Shown: piece by piece, positions 4,423-58,616 of the stretch
Layout of the letters: each line of letters starts with the position of its first letter
How positions within the stretch are numbered: the first letter of the stretch is position 1
DNA from: Rhizoclosmatium globosum
Taxonomy: Eukaryota; Chytridiomycota; Chytridiomycetes; Chytridiales; Chytriomycetaceae
DNA: 64,000 nucleotides
Reading direction: 5' to 3'
NCBI GenBank assembly: GCA_002104985.1
Contig: MCGO01000089.1
Coordinates: forward strand, 102,349-166,348
The notes under the pieces: generated by a model
The model's database searches: none
What the model saw: only the letters and a program-made list of their open reading frames with translations
What the model was told of the DNA's origin: nothing
Program-made: the position numbers and the translations under genes

Positions 4423-6610
4423 TCAAACTCGGGCCGCCATGAACTCGGATGATCCTCCAAGTTGAGACTCCAGCGCATTGGCCTTTGCGGACAACGCCCC
4501 AGTCTTGTTTTTGTAGTAAAACGCGCCGGCTGCAATCAAAGCCACGGCTCCGACACCTCCTACAACTCCACCAACGATAGCTCCAGTATTTGTGCTCCCA
4601 GAATCAGAACTTGAATATAACCCCGTGACTGTTTGAGTGAACGAAAAGGCTCTTATAGTTGGAATAGCTTCTTGTGAAGACGTCTTGGTCGAGCTCCTAG
4701 AAACTACTCCAGAGGAGGAATAAGAAATGGACGAAGAATACGTGTTAGAAAAGGTTGTACCGGATGAAAATGTAGAGGTGGGTTTTGTTTGTGATGTGAA
4801 AAAAGTAGATAAAGTAGATGGCACATTACTAGTAGAAGATACGACCGTTGTTGCAATCGTTGACGTGAATTCAGTGGTTGATGTTGCGGCTGCCGAGCTG
4901 GAAGTTGGGACGACTGTCGTTTCAGCCGTTGTTGTTGTCGTAGTCGTGGTAGTTGTAGTTGTGTTTGTGGCAGCTGCGACTGTAGTCACTACAGGAGCTA
5001 CAGCGGATGAAACAACTGGTTTAGGGGAGGACGGGCCAAAGCCTCCACCACCATTCACAATGATGATAGCAGTCAACAAAGAAACTGCTTCGAATTGATC
5101 ACGTACGTTCTTTCCATCAGGGCTGAGGAGTGTAAAGCCCGCACCTGGACGAACACTTTTAACCAAATCTTGAGATCACCAGCAAACTCACCTGCCCCGA
5201 AATTACGCATACAGTCCCAGTTATTTGTGTTACAATGGCTCAGAGTACTAGCAGCTGTGGCTTTCAGAATGGATGCGATTGAGTTTCGGACACCAGAATC
5301 ACTAGTGGCGCGGTATAAATATCCAAGTCCTTTGAAAACTGGCCAGTTGTATCCTGATGGATTCTTGCTGCAACTCAATACGTCACAATTGGGGCCGAGA
5401 ATCCCATCCCCACCAACAAAGTTGGCCTTCAGTCCGTTGAAGACTTTAATGGCTTCGTCAACTTGTCCCATCAACGATAAACCAGCCATGGCTTCTCCAG
5501 CATGATACGAGAACACATCGTTCGACACGGCTCCACAGTCATTCGTGTACACACGGTCTAAAATCACGTAACCGCCTCCGTTCTCAATCACAAGGCCAGC
5601 CGACTTCATCCAGTTCCAAATCTGCATCGCTTTGTCAGCATGACCGAGACGAGAACCAAGATCAATCATTTGCACGTTCGTGATTGAGCTCTTGAGATAC
5701 GGATTAGTAGATCCAGGTTGACGGTTTCTGCTCCTACATTTATGCAGTTAGCATTCCAACAACGATAATCCAAATAACGAACCAGTAAATGCCACCACCG
5801 CACTGATCGTCCCAACTCATCCAAACTTGATCAAACGTTGTGGAAGCAAACGCCCGCAAGTCTGCGTTCCCAGTAGCTTCAGCTCCAGAGATACCTGTCA
5901 AAACGTGTCAAAAACAAATTTTTTCTCTTGTTTGCTGGCTGAACACACTTGACAACGCCCACCACGCAATATCATCGTTCCATCGACCATCTTGAGACTC
6001 GTTCGGAGAAAAGCCACCCCTAATTTTGTTTAGGGTTACGGTATACCTTATCATAATCAGTCTGACTTACAAGAAATCGCCTCCATTTCCAGATGCAGCA
6101 GAAGCATACATATTGTTAGTCGCGAATCCGTTGTTACTTCCATCTCCAGAAGCAAGAGAGTACTGAAAAAACAAGTCTTGATACATTCCTGTATATTGAA
6201 AGAGTAATCAATATCCCAGAGCTATGGATAACCATATAATCGACTGTATGTTTACCTGATTCGTGCCATTGAACCACCCATCGACCATCTGTTGATGTTC
6301 TACCACGTCAGAATATTGTCTTTGCTGGACGCATCAATCAAAAACGCACCTGGGTTCTCCTTCCATGATCCCTTTCCTTCAATATTAGGATCAACAAAGT
6401 ACTGCTGCAATGGTCCCATGGCAGCTTTGGCAGCGGCAAGGACAGCACCTAAGAACATAAGAAAGCAAGACACCAATCAGCCACAACACTACAACAATTG
6501 AAATGCAGTAGAATAGACAAGAAATCCTACTTACCCTTGTCAGTTACATCCAGTTGTGCGTTGACGACTGCGCAAGAAAGGACTGCCAAGATGATTAGGA
6601 TCGATCGCAT
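4423..6610 (-). CDS. GH76 membrane-anchored mannanase 2
   Basis: The start ATG is at 6608-6610, signal peptide MRSILIILAVLSCAVVNA, mature start QLDVTDKGK, as in the paralogues. The minus strand near 5955-5995 reads RWNDDIAWW, the catalytic Asp pair. The 3' exons give SRNRQPGSTNPY, ITNVQMIDLGSRLGHADKA, NDCGAVSNDVFSYHAGEAM and GKNVRDQFEAVSLLTAI. The stalk is unusually long and Thr-rich, with a run of about 11 Thr (DNA near 4925-4970), followed by a membrane helix (GAIVGGVVGGVGAVALIAAG) and a 30-residue cytoplasmic tail. Several short introns interrupt it. The segment 5071-6120 is nearly identical, introns included, to the next gene, while both flanks are diverged. Confidence 0.85.
5071..6120 (-). 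repeat. Near-identical tract, copy 1 (gene conversion or recent duplication)
   Basis: Matches 7266-8315 at a constant offset of 2195 bases with no indel noticed by eye. Two introns are identical too. Differences cluster in a short island at about 5617-5660, with only isolated changes elsewhere (for example near 5373, 5390-5400 and 5957). The tract stops abruptly at both ends. Confidence 0.85.
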
Positions 6611-6836
6611 GGAGGAGTCTTTTTGTGAAAGTGTTTTTCGGCAGCCAGTTTGCCGGTCAATAAAACAAAGAGTCAAGAAGCAAAGCAGTGAATTCAACTC
6701 TGTACGTAATGAAAAGAAAAAGGAGGAGAAAGGTTTATCGTCATACTGATCAATGTGTTTCAACCTCAAAGCAATCAACTAAAACACGCGTATAGTCGCA
6801 GAACAAAAAATGAATTTAACAGGACTGTCCAACGAA

Positions 6837-8792
6837 TTAGGTAGAAGACATGAATTGTGATGTCTCAGAGGGTGCGAATGGTCCCTCCTTCGCCACTGAA
6901 GTCTTTTTAGAGTAGAAGTAATATCCAAGGGCAGAGATTGCAGCTAAAGCCCCAAGTCCACCGACTACACCACCCGCAATGGCTCCACCGTTAACAGAGT
7001 TGCCGGAATCTGTTGCTTGTGTCGTTGTCGTAATCGCAGGAGCTACTGCCGTTGCAGTAATGATTACTGTAGAAGTGCGGAATGTCGAAGCTGATGTCGA
7101 ATTGAAGGTGGAAGTTGCGATCGAAGTAGATACAAAAGATGTCGTCTGTTCAGAGCTTCTTGAAGGGACTGCATTTGTAGCATTCACGACTACGGCGGTT
7201 GTGGAAACAGCAGGTTTTGGCACAGAAGGACCGAAACCTCCTCCTCCGTTCACAATGATGATGGCAGTCAACAAAGAAACTGCTTCGAATTGATCACGTA
7301 CGTTCTTTCCATCAGGGCTGAGGAGTGTAAAGCCCGCACCTGGACGAACACTTTTAACCAAATCTTGAGATCACCAGCAAACTCACCTGCCCCGAAATTA
7401 CGCATACAGTCCCAGTTATTTGTGTTACAATGGCTCAGAGTACTAGCAGCTGTGGCTTTCAGAATGGATGCGATTGAGTTTCGGACACCAGAATCACTAG
7501 TGGCGCGGTATAAATATCCAAGTCCTTTGAAAACTGGCCAGTTGTATCCTGATGGATTCTTGCTGCAACCCAATACGTCACAATTGGGGCCGAGAATTCC
7601 ATCTCCGCCAACAAAGTTGGCCTTCAGTCCGTTGAAGACTTTAATGGCTTCGTCAACTTGTCCCATCAACGATAAACCAGCCATGGCTTCTCCAGCATGA
7701 TACGAGAACACATCGTTCGACACGGCTCCACAGTCATTCGTGTACACACGGTCTAAAATCACGTAACCTCCTCCATTCTCAATCACAAGGCCAGCCGACT
7801 TCATCCAGTTCCAAATTTGCATCGCTTTGTCTGCGTGGCCAAGTCGCGCACCTAGGTCAATCATTTGCACGTTCGTGATTGAGCTCTTGAGATACGGATT
7901 AGTAGATCCAGGTTGACGGTTTCTGCTCCTACATTTATGCAGTTAGCATTCCAACAACGATAATCCAAATAACGAACCAGTAAATGCCACCACCGCACTG
8001 ATCGTCCCAACTCATCCAAACTTGATCAAACGTTGTGGAAGCAAACGCCCGCAAGTCTGCGTTCCCAGTAGCTTCAGCTCCAGAGATACCTGTCAAAACG
8101 TGTCAAAAACAAATTTTTTCTCTTGTTTGCTGGCTGAACACACTTGACAAAGCCCACCACGCAATATCATCGTTCCATCGACCATCTTGAGACTCGTTCG
8201 GAGAAAAGCCACCCCTAATTTTGTTTAGGGTTACGGTATACCTTATCATAATCAGTCTGACTTACAAGAAATCGCCTCCATTTCCAGATGCAGCAGAAGC
8301 ATACATATTGTTAGTGGCAAATCCGTTGTTACTTCCGTCCCCGGACGCCAGAGCATATTGAAAAAACAAGTCTTGATAAATTCCTTACTCAACGAATTAG
8401 CGTCAAAATATATGGCTAGAAACAAGTAAAATACCTGATTCGTGCCATTGAACAACCCATCGCCCGTCTATTGATTGTTGAAGGTTCGAGAACGAGGGTT
8501 AACAACTTCAACATCGAAGCCTCGGTTGCCCCTAGAATAATCAAAAATGCACCTGGGTTTTCCTTCCATGATCCCTTTCCTTCAATGTTAGGATCAACAA
8601 AGTATTGTTGTAATGGTCCCATTGCAGCTTTGGCAGCGGCTAGGACTGCGCCTGTTGAGTAAGACACAGTTAATGAAGAACAACAGCGATCAAGGCTCTA
8701 ATCTAGCGATCCGTACCTTTATCGGTTACATCCAGCTGTGCATTGACCATGTTCACAGCCATGAGCGGAAGAAGCGTCTTGATCAAGTGCAT
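6837..8792 (-). CDS. GH76 membrane-anchored mannanase 3
   Basis: The start ATG is at 8790-8792, signal peptide MHLIKTLLPLMAVNMVNA, mature QLDVTDKG. The order is the same as in mannanase 2: AVLAAAKAAMGPLQQYF, an Asn/Gly/Trp-rich segment, the RWNDDIAWWAL catalytic pair, ITNVQMIDLGARLGHADKA and CDVLGCSKNPSGYNW. The Ser/Thr stalk is shorter and lacks the poly-Thr run. The helix is GAIAGGVVGGLGALAAISAL, with a tail ending SETSQFMSST. It shares a ~1.05 kb mosaic tract with the preceding gene but has its own stalk, tail and signal peptide, so the pair is an older duplication homogenised in the catalytic part. Confidence 0.85.
7266..8315 (-). repeat. Near-identical tract, copy 2
   Basis: Partner of 5071-6120 (offset 2195). 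It covers the 3' two thirds of the GH76 catalytic domain and the introns within it. A dense cluster of mostly silent differences lies at about 7812-7855, flanked by almost perfect identity. Confidence 0.85.
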
Positions 8793-9349
8793 TTGAGGCG
8801 TGGACTTGGAGATGTTCGGTGTTTTTCCTCTGACAGGGAATGCGAAAGGAATCGACTCGCAATCAACAGGGGAACGTTTCACTATAGTTGATTCGTTAAT
8901 CAAATATTAACAAGGTATGATGAAAACTAATGATAGCAGGGAAGGTTGTCGTAAATAAGGGACTAAAGTACAGTGGGAATGGTTGCCAAGACTCGCTATG
9001 TAATAATGCATCGTCGTCGTTTAATTTCGGTAGAAGCGATGCCACACTTTTTGATGGCGAGGATGGATTGGTGGTGTCTTCATGGTTTTCAAGTTTGTTG
9101 TTGGGAAACCATTTTCAGGGTGCTTTGGAAATCCACAATCGTCCAGCAACGGGATCTTCATTTACACTGAAAGCATTTGTAATTTTCAGCGTGCAATAGC
9201 CACAACTCAGTGTTCCGAAGTTATCTCTTGAACCAACTTTCGGCGCCAAAGGGAAATATAAAAAGAGGAACATCCTCGAAAGAAATCAAAAAAATACGCG
9301 TCTTTGAGGAGAAAGAACACTGAGAACAGAAAGCGAAAAATTCAAAACA
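8793..9349. other. Intergenic, 557 bases
   Basis: Between the 5' end of GH76 gene 3 and the 3' end of GH76 gene 4. It holds the upstream region of gene 3. Reading frames across it are short and show no family motif, and no RNA gene was seen. Confidence 0.6.
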
Positions 9350-11230
9350 TTAAGCGTTAGAGGTTACGAATTGAGAGTTTTCGGATGGCTCAAAGGTTGC
9401 CTTGGTGTTGACGGCACGTTTTGAATAAAAGTAGTAAACCGCAGCAGCGATAGCACATAAACCAGCAAGTCCTCCGACGACTCCACCAGCGATTGCACCA
9501 GCATTATTAGAGCTTCCTGAGTCCGCGAGTGCCGCAGCTGTAGTTGTCGAAACAGCAGCAACAGCAGTGTTGAAGCGGATAGAAGAGCTTGCAGTAAGAG
9601 TTGAAGAAGTGACATTTGAAGTGCTTGCAGTAGCGGAGGCTGTGACATTGCCAGCTGGTTTGGCAGTTGATGGTCCAAACCCTCCACCACCATTAACAAC
9701 GATGATCGCATTCAACAAAGCGACAGCCTCGAACTGATCACGAACATTCTTTCCATCAGGACTGATGAGAGTGAACGCAGCACCTGATTTTGGGTGAAGA
9801 GAAAAAAATTGGGATTTTTGGCAAAACTCAAATTTGCAAATTTGTGTCAACTCACCAGCCCCAAAGTCACGCATACAATCCCAGTTCGAAGAGCAGTGTC
9901 CGAGAACGTTTGTTGCTGTTGCCTTGAGAATCGCGGCGATGGAACTCTTGGTGCTTGCGTCACTGGTTGCTCGGTACAAGTAAGCCATTCCCTTGTAGAC
10001 TGGCCAAGAATATCCAGACGGGTTCTTGTTGCACGGCATAACGTTACAATTGGGTCCCAAGATACCATCACCACCGACAAAGATATCCCTCAGACCCTTG
10101 AACACCTTTGTAGCTTCTTCAATTTCGCCCTGAAGGGCCAAAGCTGTCATTGCTTCTCCCGCATGGTATGAATACACGTCTTGAGCAACGTTTCCGCAAT
10201 CGTTCGTGTAAAGTCTGTCGAAAATAATGTATCCTCCATTTCCGTTGTCGACAACTAGGTTTGCGGACTTGAGCCAGTTCCAAATTTGGGTTGATTTGTT
10301 GGGTTGCCCCAGTCTGACGGCCAAATCCATAACTTGAACATTTGTGATTGTACTCTTCATGTAAGGATTTTGGGAACCAGGTTCGCGATCTCTGCTCCTG
10401 TAATGCCAAAGGTCAGGAGTTGTTAGAGTCAGGACACGAATCAAGTTCCATACCAGTAAATCCCGCCACCACATTTGTCGTCCCAACTCATCCAAACTTG
10501 ATCGAGGGTTGTTGAAGCAAATGATTTTAGATCCGCGTTGCCAGTAGCCTCAGCTCCAGAGATACCTGTCAAGCTGCCCGTCAGCCACAATCTCGACAGA
10601 AACGCCTCGGATTACTCACTCGACAAGGCCCACCACATAATATCGTCATTCCAGCGTTGATCTTGCACGTCGGTCGCCTTGAAGCCGCCTCTGAGATCGA
10701 GTTAGGGCTGGTTCAAGGTTCAACGTGTCCACTCACAGGAAATCACCATTGCCAGCAGCCGAAGCATACATGTTTCCATCAGCGAATCCGTTGTTGCTTC
10801 CATCGCCGGTAGCAAGTGCGTATTGGTAGAACAGATCTTGATACATTCCTAATCCAACTTGTTAGCAGCCGATCTAACCATACACCCCTTCCTCCACGCA
10901 CCTGACTCGTGCCATTGAACAACCCAGCGACCTCCTTCAAAGACGAGGGTTAATGACGGGCTTTGACAGCTGGATTCTTGACACTTGATCAAGTGTACCT
11001 GGATTCTCGGCCCACGATCCTTTTCCTTCCACATTCGGTCCATTAAAATACTGCTGAAGGGGTCCCATGGCTGCCTTGGCTGCGGCGAGAACAGCTCCTG
11101 ATTCAGACACAAGTATTACTCACCATCAACCAATCAAAGCTGTATGCGAGGCTTTACCTTTATCAGTCACGTCTAATACTTGGCCATTGGTCAGTGCGAT
11201 CAATGCGGCAAAGGGGAGAAGGGGAAGCAT
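9350..11230 (-). CDS. GH76 membrane-anchored mannanase 4
   Basis: The start ATG is at 11228-11230, signal peptide MLPLLPFAALIALTNG, mature QVLDVTDKGK. The minus strand near 10640-10665 reads QRWNDDIMWWAL, the catalytic Asp pair. Downstream come CGGGIYW, SRDREPGSQNPYMKSTITN, NDCGNVAQDVYSYHAGEAM and GKNVRDQFEAVALLNAI. A Thr/Ser/Ala stalk leads to a helix (GAIAGGVVGGLAGLCAIAAA) and a tail ending SENSQFVTSNA that resembles the tail of mannanase 3. It is third closest in the tandem set. Probable role: cell-surface mannan trimming or cross-linking of glycoproteins to the wall. Confidence 0.85.
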
Positions 11231-11435
11231 TGCGAAAATGAGGGTTGATGATTGTGTTCTGCGGTGGAGATGTTCACGTTTTTGGTTCTTCAAGAATCCT
11301 GAAGACACTCAATTAAAACAAGTTGCCGAGAGAGAACAATGCAAGTCGAATGATTCTCAGTTCGAAAGTAACATAAGAATTGTTGAAAAATAGGGGTACT
11401 TAAATTGAATCTACTGTTGATTTTTTGATCGTGCA

Positions 11436-13403
11436 TCAGAATCTTGAGCGTGAAGATTGGCTTCGACCTGACCCTTGAGAATGGCCTCCAGTGCTTCCAG
11501 TAGGCGTCCTCACATCCCAACCTTCGTTCCTTCCCGCATTTCGACCGCCATCCATGTAATCATTCCTTCCAGCATCATTTCGTCGAGGAACTCCACGCCC
11601 CATATTATTCTTGCTGCCACTTATTGGACCTTCAACCAACTTCTCCCTTGACGAGCTCGTATACATTTCCCTTTCTGAATACGCCACCTGCTGCTCAGCG
11701 CCTTATTGCGCTTCACAACCAAAACCACAATCAAGATGACAAGGATAAGTGCGACACAACCGAATCCAATTCCAAGATACAGTGCGAGTTTTGTGTTTGC
11801 TCCAGTAGCAGCTTTCGTTGATCCATCTCCAGTGACGATAGGAGTTTTGTCTTGAACATGTTGGATCACTGGCGCACCTGTGATGACGACTAGGGCGTTT
11901 AGAATGGCAACAACTTCGAATTGATCACGCGGAGATGTTCCGTTCCATAGAGTACGATCGGTGCCTGAAAAAATGTTTCGAAGTTGCGATTAGGAACGTT
12001 AAAGCAAATTCAACCTTTATGAAGACTCACTGGGATCCAAGTCACGAATGCAGTACCAAATTGAATTGCAGGGCTGGAAATTGAACGCAGCACTTGCGGC
12101 CATTATTGTACGGATCTGAGCTTTGATGGAATCGTCTGTTGTAATTGAGTACAAGACCCCAATTCCTCTGTAGACTGGCCACATGAAACCGTTTGGCATA
12201 ATCGGAGCAGGTCCACGCATGGGATCGTACAGAATATTGTTGAACGTGAAATGTGAGGCAACGTGCTTGAAGTGTTTATGCGCTTCGTCAAGATATCGCT
12301 GGTTTCCCGTTGCTTTGTACATTGTAGCAAGACCTGACATAAGCTCTCCAGAGTGGTATGAAAACTGAGAAAAGGTTTACATAATTTAGCTGTTGTAGGT
12401 CGGGATACATACCAGCGTTCTATCAATTGCACAAGCACGGCTGTCAAGACCATCGGCAACAGCGTAAGTGACCGGATCAATCAATGTTGAACTCAGCATC
12501 CAAGTGTAAACACGATCAACGTAGTCACGATACATTTCGTTCTTGGTATAAGCGTACAATCTGGCGCCCATGTCCACATGCTGCGCGTTTGTAATCGAAG
12601 ACTTGTAGTAGGCATCGTTGACTTTTGGAGTTGTTCTATCACGACTCCCTGCTTGATTTTTAGAGTATGTACACTTACACAGCAAACACTCACAAAACAT
12701 CCCTCCTCCACACGAGTCATCCCACTGTTCATACATCTGAATAAAGGTCGTATTGACGACATCAATGTACCGTGGATTCTGCCCCTCAATGGGATTTTTC
12801 GGGGCCAGAATACCATCCTTTGTCGCTTCAGCTGCAGACATCACACCAAGCGCCCACCATCCAATATCTATTACATCCCGATTTAGTAAATGATTTCATG
12901 AATGAAATAAAACTCCACAAACCGTCATTCCATCGTCCAGTCTTCTTCGTAATCTCATCGAGAAACCCAACATTTGGTCCAACAGCTTGCTGCATCTGAT
13001 CATCCACCCAGTCATTGAACTGACTATCTCCCGTGAGTCCAAAGTAATCATAAAAGAAGCCCCAATAAATTCCACTGATGAATATCAGTAACGATCTATA
13101 TAAGGTGTCTTTCTAAAAAATACCTCTCATGCCATTGAATTAACGTCTTTGAGGCTGAGTAAGTTTCCTGCCATGCTCCGAGACCGGGCGAGTTGTCTTT
13201 GAAGAACATCTTTAACGGCCACATTGCCATTTTGTAGGCGTTCAGGACGGCCGCTAGAGGTGAAGATGGGGCACGAGTTATTTTGATGAAGCATAAGTGG
13301 CTAGAAAAACGGAAGAATTGAAGTGTTTACCTTTATCAGTGACATCCAAGGGTTCAGCGAATGCACATATAGACAGGAGGCTAAGGAGTGCAACGAGAAG
13401 CAT
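11436..13403 (-). CDS. GH76 membrane-anchored mannanase 5; frame break in tail
   Basis: The start ATG is at 13401-13403, signal peptide MLLVALLSLLSICAFAEP, then LDVTDKGK. An intron with GTTTGT donor and GTAATAG acceptor falls inside the catalytic motif; joined it reads RWNDDIGWWALGVMSAAEAT. Then SSITNAQHVDMGARLYAYTK and SYHSGELMSGLATMYKATGN. The helix LALYLGIGFGCVALILVILI is followed by VVKRNKA. At about 11700 the frame changes by one base: the raw frame ends about 30 residues later, while the shifted frame continues EQQVAYSEREMYTSSSREK and a Gly/Arg/Asn-rich tail to 11436. GH76 gene 6 has a comparable DGEMYTRG tail, which supports the shifted reading and a missing G. Confidence 0.8.
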
Positions 13404-13631
13404 GCTGTCGCCTTCGCTACTTAGGTTGCTCTGATGAATTTTGAACCCGCCCAATAACGCTCTGAATTTTTTTGTAACGCCCCGCAAAGTTCAACCACAC
13501 AGAATTCAAAGCCAACAAACAAAATTGAAACACAAGCCAATGTGCATAAACCACCTTGTCCCGCAGTCCCTTTCCAACACTTATGCACACGTTCACCTTT
13601 TACGTTTGGTAGTACTCGTTTATTTTTGTTA

Positions 13632-16600
13632 CTATTCTTCTTGAATAGAGTATTTCTCCAACAGTTCGACAACTTTAGTATGACCCATTGCTCTTGCCAA
13701 ACTGACGGCAGTTCCACCTTGGTAATTCACAAAATCCAGACAAGCTCCTTTTGAAAGCAAAAGACCAACCTTCTCTAAATTTCCATCTTCTGCTGAGTAC
13801 ATTAAAGACGACGACCCATTTTTATCACATGCATTCACATTGGCCCCTTTCGAAAGAAGAAGAGCCAGAACCTCTGCGCTTCCGTATTTTGCTGCGTAAA
13901 TAAGCGGTGTACAACCTTTGGCATTCGTTGCATCCAATTTTGCACCCGTTGATATTAAAAAGTCCACTGTGTCTACGTGTCCCTTCAGTGCTGCGAGCAT
14001 TAAAGGTGTCCATCCTTTCTTGTCTGCAGTATTCACCATAGCTCCATTAGATATTAACATCGAAACTGTTTCGGTGTAGTTTTTAATCGCTGCCAGTGAT
14101 AGTGCAGTCCATCCATGGTGGTCTTCCGCATTCACATCAGCTCCATTCTCTAATAAAAGCATGATGACTTTTGTGCTATTTGATTGGGCAGCTGACATCA
14201 ACGGTGTACATCCTTTTAAGTTATAAGCGTTCACTGTAGATCCTTTTGAAATAAGGAAAGCAACGGTGTCTGCATATCCACCTTCAGAAGCAAGCAACAG
14301 AGCAGAGTTTCCGTTTTTGTCCGCCGCATTCATGGAAGCTCCACTGGACACCAACGATTCAACAACCTTAAGGTGGCCCTTTGACCCAGCCAACATCAGA
14401 GATGTCTTTCCATTATTGTTTGCAATATTCACGGCAGCATTTTTCGATAGCAATAGAGCAACGACATCGAGATGTCCTTTCTCGGCTGCGTACATAAGAG
14501 GAGTATTTCCTTCCTTGCAGGGAGAATCAGTTATCGCGCCATTGGATAACAATAGTGAGACTGTCTCCAGGCTTCCATTAAGTACAGCGTAAGTCAGCGA
14601 CGACCACCCTTTGCTGTCAAGAGCATTTATCGAGGCTCCAGCATTAAGAAGTATCTGAACGATATCATAGTCTCCAATTTCAGCCGCTTTCATTAATGCT
14701 GTCCATCCATTCTTGTTCATTGCATCCACAGTAGCTCCATTTGAAACCAAGAGTATTACTGTTTCTTTATAGCCCTTGGAAGCTGCATAGAACAGCGACG
14801 ACATCTCGTTCTTATTGACAGCATTCACAGTGGCGCCATTTGAAATAAACAGAGCAGCTGTTTTTGTGGATCCCGTCAATACCGCGAATAGTAACGGTGA
14901 CATTCCGTTTCGATTTGTGGGATGCACGGAGGCTCCATACTTGAGCAAAAGGGAGCAGGTGTCATTATTTCCGGATTGAGCTGCATACAAGAGAGGTGTC
15001 ATTTCATAGTTGTCTATGGAATCTACAACTGCACCGCTTGATAAAAGCATTGAACAGATTTCAGTGTATCCTTTGTGAGCAGCATACATCAGAGGCGTTA
15101 ATCCATTTTTGCAAGGCTTGTCAATTAAGGCTCCTTTAGAAAGCAGGAATCGAATAATCTTGGCGTTTCCAATCTGCGCTGCAATCAGTAAGGCTGTCAT
15201 TCCGTTGTTGCTAACACTGTCCACAGCGGCGCCGTTTGATAGTAATACATCAACAATATTTTCATCGCTCTTTTCGACAGCAAGAATGAGTGGTGTTAAT
15301 CCGTCCTTGTCTGGTTCATCCACATTCGCACCGTTTGAAATTAGAAGGGAAACAGCCTCTGTGTGCCCATTTGAAACTGCAAGCGTCAAAGGCCTCACTT
15401 TGTCCTTTGTTGCCCGATCAGAAAAAGCACCGTTCGACAGCAGAATCTGAATCACTTGAACGTTTCCGTTCTTTGCTGCAAACATCAAAGGCATCCACCC
15501 AGTCCTACTAACAGAATTTACATTGGCCCCATTTCCAATCAACAATTCCACAGTCCCAACATGCCCATACAAAGCCGCATGCATGAGAGCGGTCCAACCA
15601 TTCTTTGTTGAAAGGTCTACAGCGGCTCCGTTCGAAAGCAAGAACCCAACCGTTTCAGTTTGTCCGTTTCTTGCTGCAAATATCAACGGCGTCCACCCTT
15701 TCTCATTCGCAACATCAACATGGGCCCCATTCGAAACAAGCTGTGAAACACTTTTAATGTCTCCGTTCTGCGCTGAATACATGAGCAACGTAAGACGCCC
15801 ATACGTTGTGAAATCCCAATCAACAAGAGCCTTGACTGATGCCCCATTCTCCACAAGCAGTTCGAAAATCGCGTCATTGTTCAAAAGAATCGATGCGGCT
15901 AACGCAAGGAATCCGAATTTTTTAGAAAAGTCGGCTATATTGGGAGGAGGGTTGTTGGTATCAATGTGATGCGACCAGTTCTCTAGAGCATAAGAAGTTG
16001 CAGTGGAGAGCTTTTCTTTGATGCCGAACCATGCTTTTTGGGCGAGCGAGTAGACGACTTGTTTGTGGCGGCTGACATCTTGAGTGGTAAGGAACGACCC
16101 CAATATATCCAAACAGCTGGTTGCAAGAGCGTAGTTTGATTCAGATTCGCTGATCAAGAAATTTTGTTTGCATCGCGCAGGGTTTGAGAAATAATCTTTG
16201 ACACTCTTGTGAATCACTGATATTCTGTTGGCTGAAATTTTGAGGACGGAGCGCATCTGTTTGAAGTCAATCAAAACAAATATCAAAACGATTAATGGCT
16301 CACCTTATCAACAAACATCACTGTCTCGTTATACAACGTATTTGTCAATATACTTAAAGAATTCAAGTCGAGAGGAACTCTAGAAAACAGAATCGCGCCA
16401 AACAGGGCCTTAAACACATCGATATCGAATTCATGTGCTATATTCGCTGCAATTGCGGCATAAACGTCATCAGGTCCCTCGGAAAATTCTTGGATGGCTT
16501 TCACAGCTTCATCAGGACCATATTTAGAAGATTGTAAGAACTGAATCACAACCTTGACAAATATCAATAGCCCTTCTGATTTGCTGACAATGAGATCCAT

Positions 16601-18740
16601 GGCTACCAGAGCGGCAGCTGGAAGTTCAAAGGTTTCAATGTTCCAAAGCTCCTTCAACCGTTGTTTTACAACAATCTGAACGTCAATTAAATTGTTTTCA
16701 TTCGTTGGCGACAGTTCATATGAACTCAGCTCCGTAAGGCAATCGTAGATATCCTTTTCAGGTCGGCCCGTCAAAAATATTTTGACAAATGAAGGAAGCT
16801 TTGGACCAAATTCCGTCAATATAGTCAAAAGCACTTGTCGTGTTTCATACTTCAACTCATCAATGGCATCGATCACCATCAACACTGTCTTTCCACAATT
16901 CTGAACTTGATTGAATCCACCAAGAACCAAGGTTTCAAACGCCTTGACCGGGCTTGTAAGGATACTCGCATCGCCTTGTTCAACAGCCGCCGCATCCGCT
17001 TCCATTTCAGATTCCACATATGCCTTGAACTCAGGAAACCGTTCAGAAAGAGACCATACCATATTCGAAACAACCATTGCAGGGTCATTCCGCCAACTAT
17101 CACCAAACGAGCAATAAAACTGAAACGCGAGCACAACGTCATCCGGAACGCTTTGAGTAACAGCATACGAAATCAACGACTTCCCCGTTCCCGCGCCTCC
17201 ATTCAACCAAATAATATTAACTCCATCCTTTCGAGTTGCCCACTGATACACCAAGTCCACAGCCCACCCTCGCGTCCCACCCACAAACTCCTTTGCATAA
17301 TCCGCAACAACGTTCTTGAAGTCGAACGGGTTGAGCCATTCTTGCAACTTTGATACAAATCCAACGACAGATTTGGGCATGTATTTCGGGACTTTGGATT
17401 CAATCTGGCGGAATACAGTCTCTAATGCTGAGGACCAAGTGGGATCGTTACCCTTAACCGCGCCTTTGAAGTCACCGTATAATATTCCAGCAGTGAGAAG
17501 GAAGGGCTTCGCAGTCGATGGTTCGCGTTTGTAGGATTTCACTTGCTCGATTGTCATGTCGCCAAACATGTAAACAGGGATAATAGGGATTCCTGAGTCA
17601 GCAGCATATTCAAGTTCGCGTACGCAATTGGGTGAAACCTATTAATGTCGTTTTTGGAATAATGTGAGTTGGGGTGAGAAAGGCAATGGAAGACACACCA
17701 AATATTTGGGCGAGAGACAGACAATCAAAGCGCTGGAACGCGTCAACCCGAACGTCATTCCATCGTAAATATTGGTTTTCATTTGCTCCTTATCCCACCA
17801 TAATCGAATGTCAGGGTATTTGAAACGGATACAGGCACATAGGTCTGCTACTTGATCTTCGGTGGACCAACTTTGCAACCATAAACAAAAGAAGTCAATT
17901 GTAAAAGAAACAGAGACAGTTGAAATACCTGTAAGATATCATTACGTCAAACGTTTCACCCATATCGGCCATCGGAGCTATGAGTTCACGTTGCGGCGCA
18001 GGAGTCCGTGCCACAGTGTCGAGAGTTTTGCTGGAAACACGCTCAAGGTACAATTCGTATCCAGATATACAAAGGTCTCGAAGACTGTCATTGTCCACTG
18101 GGATTCGGTTTCCAGATACAGAGAGAGCTGCAGAGAGCTTATACCCATGCGACGAGACGTCAAGTTTCTGTTCGATCTACAACCGGTATTAGTGATTTGG
18201 AATTTTTGGAAACAATGAGAACGCAAACACCTGTTTGGTCAAGTGTTCGACAGTAAATTCAAACACTCGAATACCATATCCGAACTGCGCCTTAGACCCA
18301 ACATCAAAGACAGTGAGTACAGCGTAATTTGCGAATTCAAAAACTGTCTGTTTCGAGGGATACTGAACGCGCTCGATAATCGCATCAATACGTCCGCGAT
18401 CCGTAAGCATCTGCCGCAATGCAACTCCCGACAACAACGATTCATTATAGAACACCATAATATTGAAACTATTGTCGAGGTCGAATGCTTCCCGTATCTG
18501 TTTTCAAAGTGGTATAAACAACTTTTATGATATCGAATCGAAAGCAACCTTCGCTTTGAGTTCGCGGCCTCTTGTTCCTTTGTCGATCTCAACGAGTTCA
18601 TAGTCTTTTGAATCCATGTGGCGTTCTACCCTCACACTGAGGGGGAACGTGTGTTCATAATGTGTTGGCACAACTGTTGCTCGGTATTGGTCAGGCTACG
18701 ATGGATGCAAAGAGGAGAGAGGAAAGGTTACCTGATTCAT
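13632..18740 (-). CDS. TIR-NACHT-ankyrin NLR-like receptor with possible N-terminal ubiquitin-like folds
   Basis: Seven exons join in frame by eye: 18732-18740, 18549-18695, 18231-18497, 17929-18176, 17699-17870, 16304-17638 and 13632-16256, giving 1600 residues. All introns are GT-AG. Residues 1-210 look like two beta-grasp (ubiquitin-like) units (RGRELKAKIREAFDL; FEFTVEHLTKQIEQKLDVS), an inference. TIR is at about 215-310: FDVMISYSWSTEDQ, then IRLWWDKEQM, SALIVCLSPKYL and SPNCVRELEYA, whose Glu aligns with the catalytic Glu of NADase TIRs. NACHT: P-loop GGAGTGKS at about 428-435, Walker B TVLMVIDAIDEL near 535, KIFLTGRPE sensor. 22 ankyrin repeats of 33 residues occupy about 880-1595. The architecture matches NLR/STAND sensors: repeats sense, NACHT oligomerises, TIR signals or hydrolyses NAD. 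It is a lone gene with no obvious effector partner. No frame break was seen. Confidence 0.88.
13650..15794 (-). repeat. 22 tandem ankyrin repeats (99-base period)
   Basis: Consecutive 33-codon units of the form TPLxxAAxxGxxxxVxxLLSNGAxV with no linker or indel between them, inside the NLR-like gene. Units are clearly related but diverged; they are not the near-identical type seen in some fungal WD or TPR receptors. The last unit is cut short by the C terminus (SIQEE). Confidence 0.92.
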
Positions 18741-19226
18741 TGTTTTGGCTCGGATGCAAAGAGACAAAATGCGTGACAGTTGAAGGTTGATTGGCTGACG
18801 AGAACAAGTTGTCACTAACAGTTTATCAAGAGATAGTATCTTGAAAAGAGTTCTCACATTGGTCTATTGGTATTGAGATCGGACTGTCAGTGTTGCTCGG
18901 AACTTGCTTCACTGCTGCCACTGAGATGTTTACTATGCAATCAAAGACTTTAACAACTGGAAGTCCCATCATTCATAGGTTACCTTCTTTTGAAGACCCA
19001 TTTCCCATTATTGTGGGCTAGAACGGGTTGTACTTTGGGTCAACTTTGCTGATGTGAAGAAAGTGTAAATGTCACTCTAGGTTTATCCCACTTTTATTGT
19101 ATTCTTTAACCATACATCATTTGTTAATATACAGTTTTATCTATCAAAAAAATGAATTTCATAAAAAACAACCCCTAATTATGTCACCACACCACGTCCA
19201 GGCTCCAATCCACCCCTTTTTCCCCT
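18741..19226. other. Intergenic, upstream of the NLR-like gene
   Basis: 486 bases between the NLR start and the stop of the CorA gene. It should contain the NLR promoter and the CorA 3' end. No gene-like frame or RNA was recognised. A short plus-strand frame here overlaps the CorA last exon in antisense. Confidence 0.6.
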
Positions 19227-21153
19227 TCATGCACGCTCCAACAACCCCATCTTCCATGACCCAATCATCGTCACAACAACAATCACAGTCGTCCAAATCC
19301 AGAAATACCAAAACCCAAGATCATAATGCAATTCCGGGAAATAATCAAAGTTCATTCTACGGAACAAAAAATTAGAGTTTCTTGAGGTGGGGGAAACAAG
19401 GGTAAAAACTTACCCATACACACCCGCCACAAACGTTGTCGGCAGAAACACAAAACTAACCACAGACAACAACTTCATACTCTCATTCGTCTGATGCGAT
19501 ATCATATTAAACGTCAGATCAAGTAACGACGTAGCAGACTGTTCCATCGCCTCCAGCTCTTCAAGGATCGTAAGGCAGTGGTCCAACACGTCCCCGAAAT
19601 ACGTCTTTGTGAGAGGGGAGAATAGGTTTTCCGGGGATGTTTCCTTCAACGCTGTCAATAGGTTTTCAGTTGGCGCGAGTTTTCGACGAAGGATTGTGAG
19701 TTCTTTGAGGACGAGGTGGAGGGCTATACGTTGGGGGAATTTTTTTTGATGAATATTGTGGCTTGAAATAATTATGTGCGTTAAAGAACGTACTCTTTGT
19801 GTAAGCGACTTTCGGGGCTCCAACAACACTATCATGAACACGATTAATCTGTTCCTCGTAAAACTCAACAACTTCGAAAAAGTGGTCCACGATTCCGTCA
19901 ACGATTGCATGGACGAGGAGACCGGGGTCGCCTGTTTTACGATGTCAAAAAGTCAAAGTCCGCTCGAAAGGGATCAGAAACCGTACCAGACTTTCGCAAG
20001 ACAGTAAACCGTTCTTTTACGCCACAAGCCCGACAATGTTCGACAAATTCACCCAACTCCTTATTCTTTCCACCAGTCACGGCAGGAGTTGTAGAACTTG
20101 AGGAAGCCCCGTACAAAACCTCCATGACACGGTCAGTGACTTGTCGCCCGGACCCTTGGAACACGGAAACGACGATATTCCCGCACAGAAAGATGCTGCA
20201 TTCTTCGAGATGAACTGTAGGCCTGGGAAAAGCTTGAGAAATGTTGCTCCGTTTGTCTGGTATTCAAATAACATGTTAGTTCATGCTCCCTCGTATTCGG
20301 CATTGGTCAAATGCAGTCATCAGTTCACAGATATGCACTCACTCCGCTGCTCTTTCCCCTCGTGAAGATGACACTGCTTGATTCATTTGGGCTACACTCA
20401 GAACTCTCCCCACAACTTTCCCCCGTTTCCACACATCCAAACTCAACGCACCTCCTTCCACCAAATCAAAACAAACACTAACCAGTAACCCGGTCAATAA
20501 CCTCATTATGCCCCTGAATCAACACCGGCAAATTCTGCGGCACACTTGCACTCTCTACACTCCCAATCGACAGAATCGGCATCAACAGCGAAATGTACGT
20601 GTGCGAGTCATACGAGTCCGTCTTTATACGTTGCGGGAGGTGGAACACGTCTTCCTGTATACATTTTGCCAAGAGTTATTTCCGGGTTTTTGGTTTATGT
20701 TGAAAGGAGGGAGGAGAATGGTACCACAGCGAGAGGGTGGAGGTTCAGTTTCGATTGGAGGGCAGACATTGAGGATGTTGTTAGGCCGGACACGTTGATC
20801 CATCTGATTGCGGTTGGGTCTGATGAGAAGGGAGACGGGGTGTTGAGAGCGGCAGACAGGGATTCGGAGGATACGACAGTTGAGTGGATGTCAGCGTGGG
20901 TAAAGTCAACGATTGAAATGTGTGGGGCAGTTTTGTGGTTGTGTTGGATTGAGGGAGAAGGTGAAGGTGCGGGCAGAGTGAGGCCCGGAGCAGAGTTGCG
21001 CACGTGTTCTCGCTTTGACTCCGTTTTTGGCGGTTGCGAAAGTGCGAGAACCGCAGTCGTTTTGTGCACGGCGGCTTGGAAGCGGTGGCGGGCCGATTGC
21101 GATCCTGTTACTTTCGGTGGTGGTGGTTGGTCGGATTGTTGGAACTCGCTCAT
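19227..21153 (-). CDS. CorA-family divalent-cation (Mg2+) transporter
   Basis: The start ATG is at 21151-21153. Exon 1 has a Ser/Pro-rich cytosolic start and RWINVSGLTTSSMSAL with KLNLHPLAV; the next exon continues EDVFHLPQRIKTDSYDSHTY, the conserved CorA cytosolic block. Then IFLCGNIVVSVFQ, HFFEVVEFYEEQINRVHDSV, the long stalk helix, the first membrane helix (LSVVSFVFLPTTFVAGVYG) and, across an intron (GTAAGT to CCGTAG), the signature GMNF joined as VYGMNFDYFPEL. The second helix is FWYFWIWTTVIVVVTMIG, and the protein ends LLERA. The GMN motif marks pentameric Mg2+ channels; plasma or mitochondrial membrane cannot be decided. The middle exons around 20280-20480 are not fully resolved. Confidence 0.85.
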
Positions 21154-24692: not shown

Positions 24693-26792
24693 TTACGCTG
24701 CGACTCTACCAGGCGTTTCAGATCGTGCGCGAGAGTTGCTACGTGGACCTTGAGATTGTTGTGATGGGCCTTGTTGATATGGATTTTGTTGAAATTGTGG
24801 TTGTTGGAATGTGGCTTGGTGGTTAGGTTCTTGTTGATATGGTCCTTGCATGCCGTCTTGCACAACAATTCTGCCAGGAGATTTCGGACGTGGAGAGTGC
24901 TGGTATTGTGGACCACCTTGAATGGGAACGTCTACAATTCTACCCTCGGAATTCTTGCGAGAATTGTTGTACACTGGATTCGCTCCATACTGCTGTTTAT
25001 CAGAATACTGCGGTAATCCACGCGGAACTTGCTTTGCAGCATCTTGTCTCCGATATTCCTGTCCGCGAGTGTACATTTCACCATCCTCATATTCTCTTCT
25101 CTTCACATCCCCACCAAAATGTCCCCTTGCATCCACAGCTGCCTTCTTTCGCTTCCAAACCAACACACCAATTACAGCAATAATCAAAACCGCCGCGGCT
25201 CCTACCCCAACTCCAACATACAACAACGTATTCCCACCTTTCCCGCCACCGCTATCACTCCCAACCGTCGCAGTTGCCAGCGGCGCCTGCACAACCTTTG
25301 TCTTCACATTCACACCAGCAACAACTGCAACAGCCTCCAAAACAGCCACAACCGAAAACTGATCCCGCACACTCGTCCCATCCAACAGCGTATGCCCAAC
25401 GCTCACATCAAGCTTCCTCATACAATTCCACGCAGCATCACAAGTCCCAAACAAATCAACAGCCGACATCTGCAGAATAACCGTCACCCTCGCCTTCACA
25501 GTCGCATCCGTCGTCGCCGCATACAAATCCGCAAGCCCCTTATACACATGCCAAAGAAACGCATCCGGCTTAGTAGCGTCACTAGGATCATACAAAACAC
25601 CACCGTCCCTCGTAAACGTCCTATCCAGCCACGCGAAATGTGAATGCGCTTCGTCAAGATACTGCTGAGACCCTGTCGCCCCATACATGATCGAAAGCGC
25701 GCTTATAATTGTACCGGTGTGATAACTCCTGTATATAATCGCGCCTGTGACTTTATCAAAGTCTGTGGGTGCACAGTAGCGGTTATCGATTCCGTCTGTA
25801 AGGGAGAAGGTTTTTGGATCAAAGAGGCCTGGCGTATTCTTGATCCATGTGTTGACACGGTCGAAGGCGACGATGTAGGAAGGGTCCTTTGTCATTCGGT
25901 ACAAACGCGCGCCAAGTTCCATGTGCTGGGCGTTTGTGATTGCGGATTTGTAGTATTGCTGGTTGGGATGTTCTGGGTTGAAGGAGTGGTTGATGCTCCA
26001 AAAGATTCCTCCGCCGCACGTGTCATCCCAACTGTAGAACATTTCGTAATAGGTGTTGTTTGCGACGGAGAGGTAGAGTGGGTTTCCGGCGCCGTTTTCG
26101 ACAAGTACTTTTGGGTTTACTTTTCCGAGACCGTTTGTTGCTTCAGCAGCGGTCATGATGGCAAGGCCCCACCAGGCAATGTCGTCGTTCCAACGACCGG
26201 TGCTGATTGTTGCGACTGACTTTCCGTCCTATTTGAATATCGCTTAATTTTTAATAAATTCGGAAGTTCAACGTACCAAATAGTCTGCATTCAACCCAAT
26301 CGAGATCTGCATGTTCCCATCAACCCAATCAACGTAAGTATCGTTCGGACTCAATTGCATATACTGGTAAAACAAGTCCCAATACATTCCCCTAAACTTC
26401 GCATAAGTAAGCAGACTTTCGTAAGAAAATACTCAACGATTCATGCCACTGTACGCCGTCATGACTCTTCCCATCCGTGAAGATATACTTTTCAATCCAA
26501 GCACCTTGATTCGAGTTGGCTGCAATCAAAAGTTAGCTAAATCAGCACCCCCATCTGGCACTGTATCACCATCAAAGTACATCGCAAGCGGACCCATCGC
26601 TGCCGTCAATGCATTCATGATCGAGTCTAAAAACCGAATTGAAAAGTGTCAGCAACCAATGTCAATCAAAACTTAGAGTATGCCTCCAAATCTAAAAACT
26701 CAACTCAAATCCAAGAAGTTGACAGTTTGTTGAGCAGACGCAACCGATACAGCGATCGCCGCTGCCGTGACTGCAGTCGATCCTAGTTTCAT
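24693..26792 (-). CDS. GH76 membrane-anchored mannanase 6, long cytoplasmic tail
   Basis: The start ATG is at 26790-26792 with signal peptide MKLGSTAVTAAAIAVSVASA. Catalytic block GRWNDDIAWWGLAIMTAAEA, then YSWDDTCGGGIFWS, SAITNAQHMELGARLYRMTK and YRSYHTGTIISALSIMYGAT. A short Gly/Ser stalk leads to the helix LLYVGVGVGAAAVLIIAVIG and VWKRKK. The cytoplasmic tail of about 150 residues is much longer than in the other copies, rich in Gln/Pro/Tyr with RRQDAAKQVP, YQQEPNHQ and a basic Ser/Arg end. The 3' exon is about 1.4 kb. Separated from the main GH76 cluster by about 11 kb; closest to gene 5 by motif wording (SITNAQHM/V, EMYT). Confidence 0.85.
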
Positions 26793-54259: not shown

Positions 54260-56946
54260 TCATTGCGAAAACAGTAGCCGGCGTTTCTTCGGCTCAATCC
54301 AACCCTTGATATCGTCTGGATACTTGGCTCCTTCTCGGTCAAATCAAAGTAATCCTTCGCAACACCCAACGCGGACAAGAAACCCGTGAAATCTTGAGCA
54401 AACTCAAGCATCGCACCGGATCCAAGACCCACCGCCACGGGATCGATTATATTGGCAAACGATGGTTGCTTGATGCTGTATCCTGGAACGAGGGCTTTTG
54501 CAGCATCACGCCACCAGAAGTGAAGAGATCGAACTGTCCAGAGATAGTTGAATGCATCTATATATTTCAGAGATTATTCAGTGCCGTCTGTTCGATAAAA
54601 CTTAAACCACTTACATGCAGTTGGTTGTGAGGGTGCGTCCATTCCCGTCCAGCAGGCAACACGGTTTGCTTCAACACGACTATTTCCGTTTCTCATAAGT
54701 TCAAGTTAATACACAAGGAAGATACTCACTATCTTGGTTCTCTAGCTTTCACAATCTCCTGTGCAGTTCGCAAAGTCTCCATTGCCTCAATAGCCAAATC
54801 AATGTTACTTCCCTTGGTCTTGAGCTCAGCAACGTATTCGTACAAACACAGAACTTGATGAATTCTTAATGCCGTCATCCGACCCGCGTCTGCAATGTCA
54901 TCCCATAAGTCTTTCGTGTAAGCTGGAGCTTTGGCTGCAAGCGCGACAGTCCTTTGGCTCAGGTCCATGAATTTTCTATCCATTTCAAGTAAGAGTGGCT
55001 TTACGTATTGCGCGTATTCCAGATCAACGTTGACATCATCGTCCTTATGCTTAATGAGTGCGTCTGCAACGTGTTCAACCCAGTTTTCACCATTCTTGAA
55101 TTCTACTAGACCCAATCGATCAGGTTGTGTAAGCTTTCCGATAATCTTGGAGACATCGTCCCAAGTGTCCCAACCAACAATGTATCCGAGTCCATTCTTT
55201 CTCGAAATATCGTCATATTGCTCTTTTCCTTCTAGTTTTCCGAGGAGCAGCAAGTTGTGTTCTGCAGTCGTCCAATCGATAATCAAATCCTCTGCATCTT
55301 TTTGGTCTTGCTCTGTACTCATGTGACGAGACAATGGTCCAAGTAGCATACGTAAGGCTTCCTTCTCGTCTTTGATCTCAACGAACGGATTCCATGCTGC
55401 ACGGGCAGTCAACGCGTCATTCAACCAGTATCCCCATTCCCATCCAGACGCGAAAATCAGTTGACCGTCCATACGGTTCTTGTGCGTCGAGTTGTCTTCA
55501 TCAGAAGCAAGAAGACGCAAATCGTGAAACCGACGTTCAAAGTAAATTGGCATAAAGAGGGGAACATCAATATCGACAGACACCCAATAACAAGTCTCAG
55601 GATAAAAAACAACAGGCCGTTTGCCGTTTTGAGCTCAAAGTTGAGGTATTCACGAATGTACTTGAAGTCTTTGTTTCCATAAGTTGGAGCTGGGTCATCC
55701 AATGCATATGGCTCAACTGTGTGTGGTAGGACACCCAGCGTTGGGCTTGCAAAATGAGGCAACATGTTGTAATTGATGTCTTCGCCTGTACGTGGGTCTT
55801 TGTATCCTTTCGCTACTTGTCCGGCAGAACAGTGGACTTTGATGAACATTGTAATATCGTACTTTTCCGAAACGTAGTCAGCAGCAGCGTTCATCCAGTT
55901 TATCATTGTCTCAGGAGATGTGTGAGTAAACTCGGAGGTTCCACTCTGTGTTGAGTAATCAATAATAGTTAAAGACATGGAAGTCAACACACCTCAGTTC
56001 CCAAAAAGTCGAATCCAGCTTTCATCACCCAATCAAGACTTGATTGAATTTCTTTCACTTCAGCATCTAAATTGTCTCCGTTCCCAGTCTTGGTCAATCG
56101 GAAACTGTGCTGCTGAGCGAACGCGATTGGAACGTCAACACCAACCATAATTCCATAGGAGTGACCGACATCTACGATGCGCTTTAAACGTTCAATTCGA
56201 ACATCAGAACGTGCCCAGTCCATCCAGGTGCTTCCTTCCAACAGTGGCCATTCAACACCATTCTGCTTGTTTGCAACAAGCCATTCACAGAAAGAAGCGA
56301 ACTCGGGAATCTGGCTCTCCCACCCGATTTGATCGTCCACACCCTTTGGACCAAACCCTTGCAAGAAGGGAGTCAACTCAAGAGGGTGTTGGGTGTGGTA
56401 GTGGATGGCACGGAACTTCTTCCAGCGAGGAGCTTCATCGAAAGTTACATTCACGGTTCTCAAACCAACAGCAGGTGGAATCGATGGAGCGAGTGGGTGC
56501 ATGAACGCAAATCCAAGTTCTTCCAGGGCAGCATAAACTCCGTAAGCAAGACCACGGTTTCCGTGGCTCCAAACTGGCTGGATCTTCATACTGTTTTCAG
56601 TGCGAGGACCGTCTTCGAACGAGTTACGGCCATTGACAGCAACGACTGTTGATCCATCGTCTTTCAGCTGACACCGAATGTGGAACGATTCACTGCCCAG
56701 GGATTCCAGCGTCTCTCTTGAGATAAGTGCATTTGTGTACTCATTTGTACCAATGCAGAGCACCAGAGCCTTGTCCTTGTTGACAATGTTGTCAAAGGTC
56801 AGGGCAAAGGACTCGGAGCTGTTCACAACAGAAATCGTCCCGTCCGATAAAGCCTGACCCAAGAGAGTAGTGATGCGCGGAAGAACGGCAGAGGGAAGCC
56901 CGTCTTCCTCAGTCGTCCACACAATAATGTGGTTGAAAACGTGCAT
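54260..56946 (-). CDS. Uncharacterised TIM-barrel hydrolase-like protein, copy A
   Basis: Start ATG 56944-56946 (MHVFNHIIVWTTEEDGLPSA), no signal peptide or helix. N-terminal domain ends RGLAYGVYAALEELGFAFMH, wording like the accessory domains before GH20/GH67-type barrels. Barrel-like blocks follow: WKKFRAIHYHTQHPLELTPF, HSYGIMVGVDVPIAFAQQHS, AGFDFLGTE, an intron, SGTSEFTHTSPETM, ITMFIKVHCSAG, WVSVDIDVPLFMPIYFERRF and LIFASGWEWGYWLNDA, then a helical C-terminal domain. Frame breaks: a missing A near 55628 (FEL then NGKRPVVFYPETCYW) and one near 54324 (KEPKYPDDIKGWIEP). The family has no name I can assign; hydrolase function is inferred only from fold-like wording. About 80% of motif residues match copy B by eye. 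Confidence 0.65.
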
Positions 56947-57042
56947 TTGGCGGAACTAATTTGTGGAGTGTCGAACCTCCGATTTCAGTGTACAGCCACG
57001 ATTAAGGGCAATAGTTATATACAACTTTAATTCTGCATTTGT

Positions 57043-58175: not shown

Positions 58176-58616
58176 TTGTGATGATTTCTTGGCAGTTGAA
58201 AAAGAGTTTTCCTTGGAAGTTCTTGGCAAGTGGCTGTTCCTTTCAGTGTAATCAATTATGTACACTGCTTTGGTTTTGGCAGGAACTTTGTTCAAGTTGT
58301 ACTTCTACATTTGTAATGTCTATTGCACAAACATTTGTCAGCTTATTACACAGAATACTCGCATCAGATATGACCCAAATAAAGCATTACATATGCCAAA
58401 GATAGTCACAGAAGGGAGAAAGGGTATTTTTGTTTACATATTACAAACTTTAAAAATGAGGCTACTTTATTATCAAACCGCAACACTCCAATTCAAACAA
58501 TGAGGCAAAGAATAACAAACGGAGCATACTGCTATAAGAGGTTCAAACGAAAATAAAAGAAATATAAGAGGTCCAAAAAGTTAAAAATCAACAACGAAAA
58601 ATCATGGTAACCCTTT
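58176..58616. other. Intergenic, 441 bases
   Basis: Upstream region of the NIPA-like gene and 3' end of the following gene (both minus). AT-rich. No gene seen. Confidence 0.5.

Follow-up and report, generated by a model that had tools for sequence, protein, structure and literature searches.

A predicted TIR-STAND receptor of the chytrid Rhizoclosmatium globosum and its large family

We analysed a 64,000-nucleotide stretch of the genome of the chytrid Rhizoclosmatium globosum (contig MCGO01000089.1, below C409, positions 102349-166348; hereafter the window), in which the minus strand carries a gene for a protein with a TIR domain, a NACHT-type ATPase and ankyrin repeats. The species belongs to the Chytridiales, and PMC11291939 names its strain JEL800. 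The gene likely encodes an intact intracellular TIR receptor of the STAND type (signal transduction ATPases with numerous domains), i.e. a fungal TIR-containing NLR (NOD-like receptor), which belongs to a large family in R. globosum and would work as proposed below. With less assurance, we lean to the broader view that the family comprises tens of lipid-anchored receptors with tandem ubiquitin-like units in front of TIR and NACHT, where the sensors (ankyrin, WD40 or Sel1-SAM) and the anchors (N-myristoyl or CaaX) are interchanged, and that it forms a fungal TIR-NLR immune system parallel to that of plants.

As the preliminary description of this DNA had proposed, seven minus-strand exons separated by six GT-AG introns (36, 51, 54, 58, 60 and 47 nucleotides, in order) join into one open frame of 1600 amino acids and a stop; exon 1 alone is doubtful and is discussed below. 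The remaining exons and the domains downstream of the N-terminal region are as follows.

18549-18695, minus strand: exon 2, residues 4-52; its 5′ end would be 18673 if the upstream exon 1 holds
18231-18497, minus strand: exon 3, residues 53-141
17929-18176, minus strand: exon 4, residues 142-224, ending in phase 2
17699-17870, minus strand: exon 5, TIR
16304-17638, minus strand: exon 6, end of TIR and NACHT/STAND
13632-16256, minus strand: exon 7, linker, ankyrin repeats and stop
17447-17951, minus strand: TIR domain, about residues 217-345, across introns 4 and 5, with TIR_2 at 219-306
17615-17617, minus strand: codon of Glu289, in SPNCVREL, at the position of the glutamate of NAD+-cleaving enzymes (NADases)
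16691-17251, minus strand: NACHT/NPHP3_N-type STAND ATPase, residues 411-597
13722-15917, minus strand: 22 ankyrin repeats, residues 840-1571

Introns 2, 3, 5 and 6 lie at the same positions in paralogues L010 and L012 (spliced alignment), and differences between the window and the contig of the other haplotype fall mostly at third codon positions (19 of 27 in the N-terminal part, 10 of 12 in TIR, 17 of 23 in NACHT). The exons are thus likely to be coding. Aligning residues 1-727 back to the DNA with splicing recovered all five introns of the span, a result that is not independent, as the same protein served as query. That TIR and NACHT belong to one gene is borne out by two annotated single gene models, P0013 (R. 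globosum BCR33DRAFT_765973) and P0015 (Rhizoclosmatium sp. JEL0117), which have the same order of N-terminal part, TIR and NACHT.

The TIR domain scores well above the Pfam cut-off (TIR_2, PF13676, 48.9 bits in the spliced protein, cut-off 28; 20.2 bits from the exon 5 frame alone). A profile built from eleven TIR sequences matched Cat1 (E 1.1e-8), TIR-1 (1.3e-6) and Roq1 (2.2e-6), and also MyD88, RPS4 and SARM1. In the profile alignments Glu289 lies opposite a Glu in both TIR-1 and Roq1, residues that we take to be catalytic, in agreement with the earlier proposal of a TIR domain with this glutamate in SPNCVREL. The NACHT domain, likewise predicted, carries both the P-loop GGAGTGKS and VIDAIDEL, and NPHP3_N scores 76.9 bits at residues 411-573 against a cut-off of 24.8. 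Ank_2 scores 766.8 bits in the last exon, and a scan with a 33-residue consensus, picked from the window sequence itself, counted 22 repeats (21 strong, the first one weak), the number given before. Neither NB-ARC nor LRR is among the Pfam matches of the window protein.

The gene has many relatives in the genome. The TIR-NACHT part of the protein gave 97 matches in the 56.9 Mb searched, which clustered at gaps below 1500 nucleotides into 46 loci; this and the other family counts are lower bounds, yet include both haplotypes. The window and a copy on contig C130 are colinear over 9.9 kb at 94.9%, and this pair and four further groups of loci, one with three members, align together with their flanks at 94.8-98.9%. 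We considered such duplicate loci as gene copies and dropped the idea, since with flanks this similar most of them are probably the two haplotypes; 46 loci, therefore, are not 46 genes. A search with the N-terminal 216 residues gave 46 matches at E ≤1 in 19 loci, all 19 of them adjoining TIR-NACHT loci. TIR_2 gave 94 genome matches at E ≤0.01, 86 of them over the cut-off, at 89 places. Of these places 41 coincide with TIR-NACHT loci and 48 lie elsewhere, with close series on contigs C112 and C55. A different TIR architecture is seen on C201, where a 529-amino-acid frame (L037, 889-2478, minus strand) has about 220 residues lacking a Pfam match over cut-off and then two TIR_2 stretches; L038, on the same contig, has a TIR_2 frame of similar length. 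In L041 (1021-1851, plus strand) TIR_2 follows a cysteine-rich stretch that looks by eye like a zinc-binding domain.

We fetched 20 of the loci (L009-L028; 15 groups by near-identity, L028 being the other haplotype of the window). TIR and NACHT are present in all 20, as is some N-terminal part, which is partial in several (spliced alignment). All 20 retain the NADase-type Glu and 19 the P-loop Lys; the NACHT domain of L022 has Glu instead (GGAGTGES). The last exons encode ankyrin repeats (by Pfam in L009, L010 and L020) or WD40 repeats (by Pfam in L019 and L023), the others being typed by eye, so that, with the Sel1-SAM end of P0013, three sensor types occur in the family. A TIR-NACHT tree of 18 rows, several with sensor labels assigned by eye, splits the ankyrin type, together with P0013, from the WD40 type with support 99/98. 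The last frame is shorter than 400 codons in seven loci (L014, L016, L018, L020, L025, L026 and L028), and L016 has two stops and a frameshift; some members, thus, may be broken or mis-assembled.

Among annotated proteins, a search with a seven-row alignment, scored among the 7999 candidates with most common words, reached the Rhizoclosmatium proteins P0013-P0017. These resemble the window protein in the N-terminal pair (whole or in part), TIR_2 and NPHP3_N/NACHT, where TIR_2 of P0014 rests on a precomputed domain list and the alignment. Unlike the window protein, none of the five has an ankyrin array: the C-terminal part consists of Sel1 repeats plus a SAM domain in P0013 and of WD40 in P0014. 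P0015 is a close relative of L026, and contig C224 from 460920 on (L039) encodes stretches matching P0016 (R. globosum BCR33DRAFT_825036). Residues 1-730 of the window protein found 12 matches, which are NACHT proteins, and residues 1-370 found none among 2301 candidates. The Podochytrium protein P0001, TIR-like by eye, was dropped when profile comparison gave no support. No prokaryotic relative of the TIR domain was confirmed among 87 stretches from a scan of genome contigs with one narrow peptide pattern.

A start with MGxxxS/T is the rule for N-myristoylation, and a CaaX end is a rule for C-terminal lipidation. The preliminary description began the gene at a short MNQ exon, which is probably wrong: an exon further upstream fits the paralogues better and is probably the true, putative first exon.

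18984-19008, minus strand: proposed true exon 1, 25 nucleotides, MGNGSSKE plus G, N-myristoylation-type, phase-1 donor GTAACC
18732-18794, minus strand: optional 63-nucleotide exon between exons 1 and 2, phase 1 to phase 1, fitting the frame of both neighbours
18732-18740, minus strand: exon 1 as first described (MNQ); it depends on the 36-nucleotide intron, shorter than all the others, and is probably not where the gene begins

The predicted start at 19008, MGNGSSKE, has the MGxxxS/T motif, and its exon can be spliced in frame to the acceptor before 18673, directly (1598 amino acids) or via the 63-nucleotide exon (1619 amino acids). A first exon of exactly 25 nucleotides up to a phase-1 GT donor is seen in L022, L024, L025 and L026 as well as in the window, and in L014 a single open frame runs from MGQKQS into the N-terminal domain. 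Annotated P0015 and P0016 start with MGGEQSKP and MGGNQSKP. Of the 20 loci, 12 have the motif MG-x3-S/T in the 620 nucleotides ahead of the N-terminal region, where 1.1 are expected from mononucleotide shuffling; the background in 198 tiles, taken from the window itself, is 12. By groups, the MGxxxS type of start is found in 9 of 15, with L013 set aside because its MGTQLT, absent from its twin L012, is likely due to chance. Three groups without MGxxxS have, by eye, CaaX-like ends (CVVM in L010/L011, CVLM in L012/L013 and CVIV in L019), and the stretches examined of L009, L016 and L023 contain neither.

The N-terminal region, about 190 residues, had been described, over about 210 residues, as resembling two beta-grasp folds. 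We favour, as not proved, two ubiquitin-like units.

18363-18647, minus strand: candidate ubiquitin-like domain 1, about residues 20-97, across intron 2; sub-threshold matches to ubiquitin, NUB1 and ubiquilin; limits estimated from alignments
18030-18341, minus strand: candidate ubiquitin-like domain 2, about residues 105-190, across intron 3; sub-threshold matches to UN_NPL4, U11/U12-25K and ISG15; limits estimated

The preference follows from profile searches of the PDB, in which matches were mostly ubiquitin-like and a reversed control had none. An eight-row profile gave 18 matches, 15 of them ubiquitin-like (U11/U12-25K at E 0.013, NUB1, ISG15, ubiquilin). An eleven-row profile gave 34, of which 25 were ubiquitin or ubiquitin-like, eight were PEP carboxylases and one a designed NTF2, with a best E of 0.016; the same profile reversed gave three matches. 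The ubiquitin-like matches include many variants of a small number of proteins, and the assignment of some to this fold is ours. Conjugatable ubiquitin ends in Gly-Gly, and no C-terminal Gly-Gly is present at either unit in the window sequence. The Crinkler family has no Pfam match in the window protein or in eight members.

In most comparisons of haplotypes and close pairs, different parts of the protein change at different rates. Between the window and C130 the ratio of synonymous to non-synonymous differences is 44:13 in the front and 41:37 in the repeats (p 0.004, a rough value, as changes were counted for the synonymous and codons for the non-synonymous differences), and between L010 and L011 it is 42:0 and 29:10 (p 0.0003). 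The same contrast is found in L015/L017 (p 0.018) and L015/L021 (p 0.008), pairs which, like all those within L015, L017 and L021, are not independent. The repeats thus change faster than the front in four of six comparisons, and the front is under purifying selection. L018/L019 and L026/L027 were left out of the counts, as their joined frames were mismatched.

From these features we infer a way of working, including the ligand, the oligomer, the NADase activity, cell death, lipidation and the role of the ubiquitin-like pair. A myristoylated start, or a C-terminal CaaX in some paralogues, would hold the receptor on a membrane, where the ankyrin repeats may recognise a ligand or a host target. 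Next, the NACHT ATPase would switch and oligomerise, and the TIR domains, brought together, would cleave NAD+ or produce an ADP-ribose-type signal, with defence or cell death as the outcome. The ubiquitin-like pair, in the interval between anchor and TIR, may be a binding or holding module and not a conjugated tag.

Several results weigh against the receptor and family proposed here. NACHT PF05729 itself stays below its cut-off in the window protein (23.9 versus 26.7 bits; relative P0013 reaches 30.9), the N-terminal query was matched at just 19 of the 46 loci, and no 25-nucleotide first exon was seen in four loci (L014, L015, L020 and L027) whose MGxxxS is arranged differently. The contrast between front and repeats is absent from L017/L021 (p 0.39) and L012/L013 (p 0.43). 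The C130 copy has 14 frame-changing indels in its exons; these look like assembly errors, since the region on the CorA side has nine too, but with just two on the GH76 side the copy may be a broken allele. Doubt is greatest at the N-terminus. The window protein is below the Pfam cut-offs (ubiquitin 15.1 versus 25.4, UN_NPL4 16.6 versus 21.9), as it is for every ubiquitin-like family, and none of the PDB matches is significant alone. Among eight members the best ubiquitin-like family (UBL_UBAC1, E 0.0056) is outscored by the unrelated RecQ_Zn_bind (E 0.0015). An AlphaFold model of P0013 from five sequences has a mean predicted local distance difference test (pLDDT) score of 40.7, with 21-36 in the N-terminal blocks and 51-76 in the TIR blocks. 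The region may, then, be a beta-grasp module of a different kind (RA, RBD, PB1 or DCX) or have a fold unrelated to it. We consider this rather unlikely, given the predominance of ubiquitin-like proteins among the matches of both profiles, which touch both halves of the region, and their absence from the reversed control.

Instead of being a NADase, the TIR domain might act as a scaffold to which other TIR proteins are recruited; MyD88, an adaptor, is among the profile matches, and the TIR_2 places outside TIR-NACHT loci, including the frame with two TIR_2 stretches, would supply the partners. The Glu kept at all fetched loci and the best matches, which are named enzymes or immune receptors (Cat1, TIR-1, Roq1), make this improbable. 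Decay of a duplicate family of little function, to which the stops and frameshift of L016 and the short last frames point, is very improbable: the window copy is intact, synonymous changes strongly outnumber the others in the front of several pairs, and L026 has its close relative in Rhizoclosmatium sp. JEL0117. A role in self/non-self recognition or development, instead of parasite defence, is unlikely, but less so. To our knowledge hyphal fusion, on which known incompatibility systems act, does not occur in chytrids, and we count this against it; in its favour, divergence between the haplotype contigs is greater in the repeats, and HET-E and HET-D act in heterokaryon incompatibility, according to the accessible text of two papers (PMC9815663, PMC10197012).

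The predicted TIR-STAND receptor shares with the plant TIR-NB-LRR proteins Roq1 and RPS4 the TIR Glu position, a STAND switch and a repeat sensor. Plant proteins of this class are ordered as TIR, NB-ARC switch and LRR sensor; the window protein differs in having NACHT/NPHP3_N and ankyrin in place of the latter two, and in carrying a putative anchor motif and a candidate ubiquitin-like pair ahead of TIR. The NADases SARM1 and TIR-1, ordered ARM-SAM-TIR, share the TIR domain, with the aligned Glu in TIR-1, but have no NACHT. The fungal NLRs HET-E, HET-D and NWD2 combine NACHT with a repeat sensor, as the window protein does, and carry HET or amyloid motifs and not a TIR_2 match; the sections available to us report no ubiquitin-like pair for them. 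The HET domain is described as a remote relative of TIR (PMC4986451, PMC9815663, in part), and HET or amyloids as the killers of fungal NLRs where plants use TIR (PMC4986451, PMC10197012, in part).

In the accessible text, a 2014 survey found no NLRs among chytrids (PMC4986451), and a 2022 paper states that TIR had been reported from NLRs of Chytridiomycota, describes TIR-like effectors for Pezizomycotina and names Crinkler, of the ubiquitin clan, as an N-terminal type of fungal NLRs (PMC9815663). Both clans, therefore, are already on fungal NLRs. There Crinkler and SEFIR/TIR-like are separate N-terminal types, whereas the window protein would pair a ubiquitin-like front with TIR. A 2026 preprint, an atlas of TIRs across eukaryotes that is likewise available in part, finds almost none in fungi, and in EukProt, which has few fungal entries, just those of R. 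globosum (PMC13142454), supporting the rarity of TIR in fungi first supposed. TIR-NLRs in chytrids, thus, are not new as such. The claim that a chain of two ubiquitin-like domains, TIR, NACHT and ankyrin had not been described holds to this extent: in titles and abstract openings of open-licence papers (supplements being outside the search) we found no description of a TIR-NACHT protein with a ubiquitin-like front or of its family. Within that chain TIR, NACHT and ankyrin stand in one gene and the ubiquitin-like pair is favoured, unproved. What appears to be new is the predicted tandem of ubiquitin-like units in front, together with the putative anchors and the size of the family.

Elsewhere in the window, a CorA-type Mg2+ transporter (19410-19952) adjoins the receptor, and GH76 glycosidase genes lie near it at 5073-13410 and 24693-26228 (Pfam, three frames); the units 5073-5747 and 7268-7942, in tandem, are nearly identical. 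The interval 54729-62092 contains long frames in two similar sets; the two pieces of these that were scanned, 54729-55634 and 55984-56955, gave no Pfam match.

With a TIR-NLR family that is large and diversifying in a chytrid, one could test whether most fungi have lost TIR-STAND immunity, or whether it was gained once or arose in parallel. The combination of an anchor, a ubiquitin-like pair and TIR would be a new arrangement in which the restraint of TIR enzymes may be studied.

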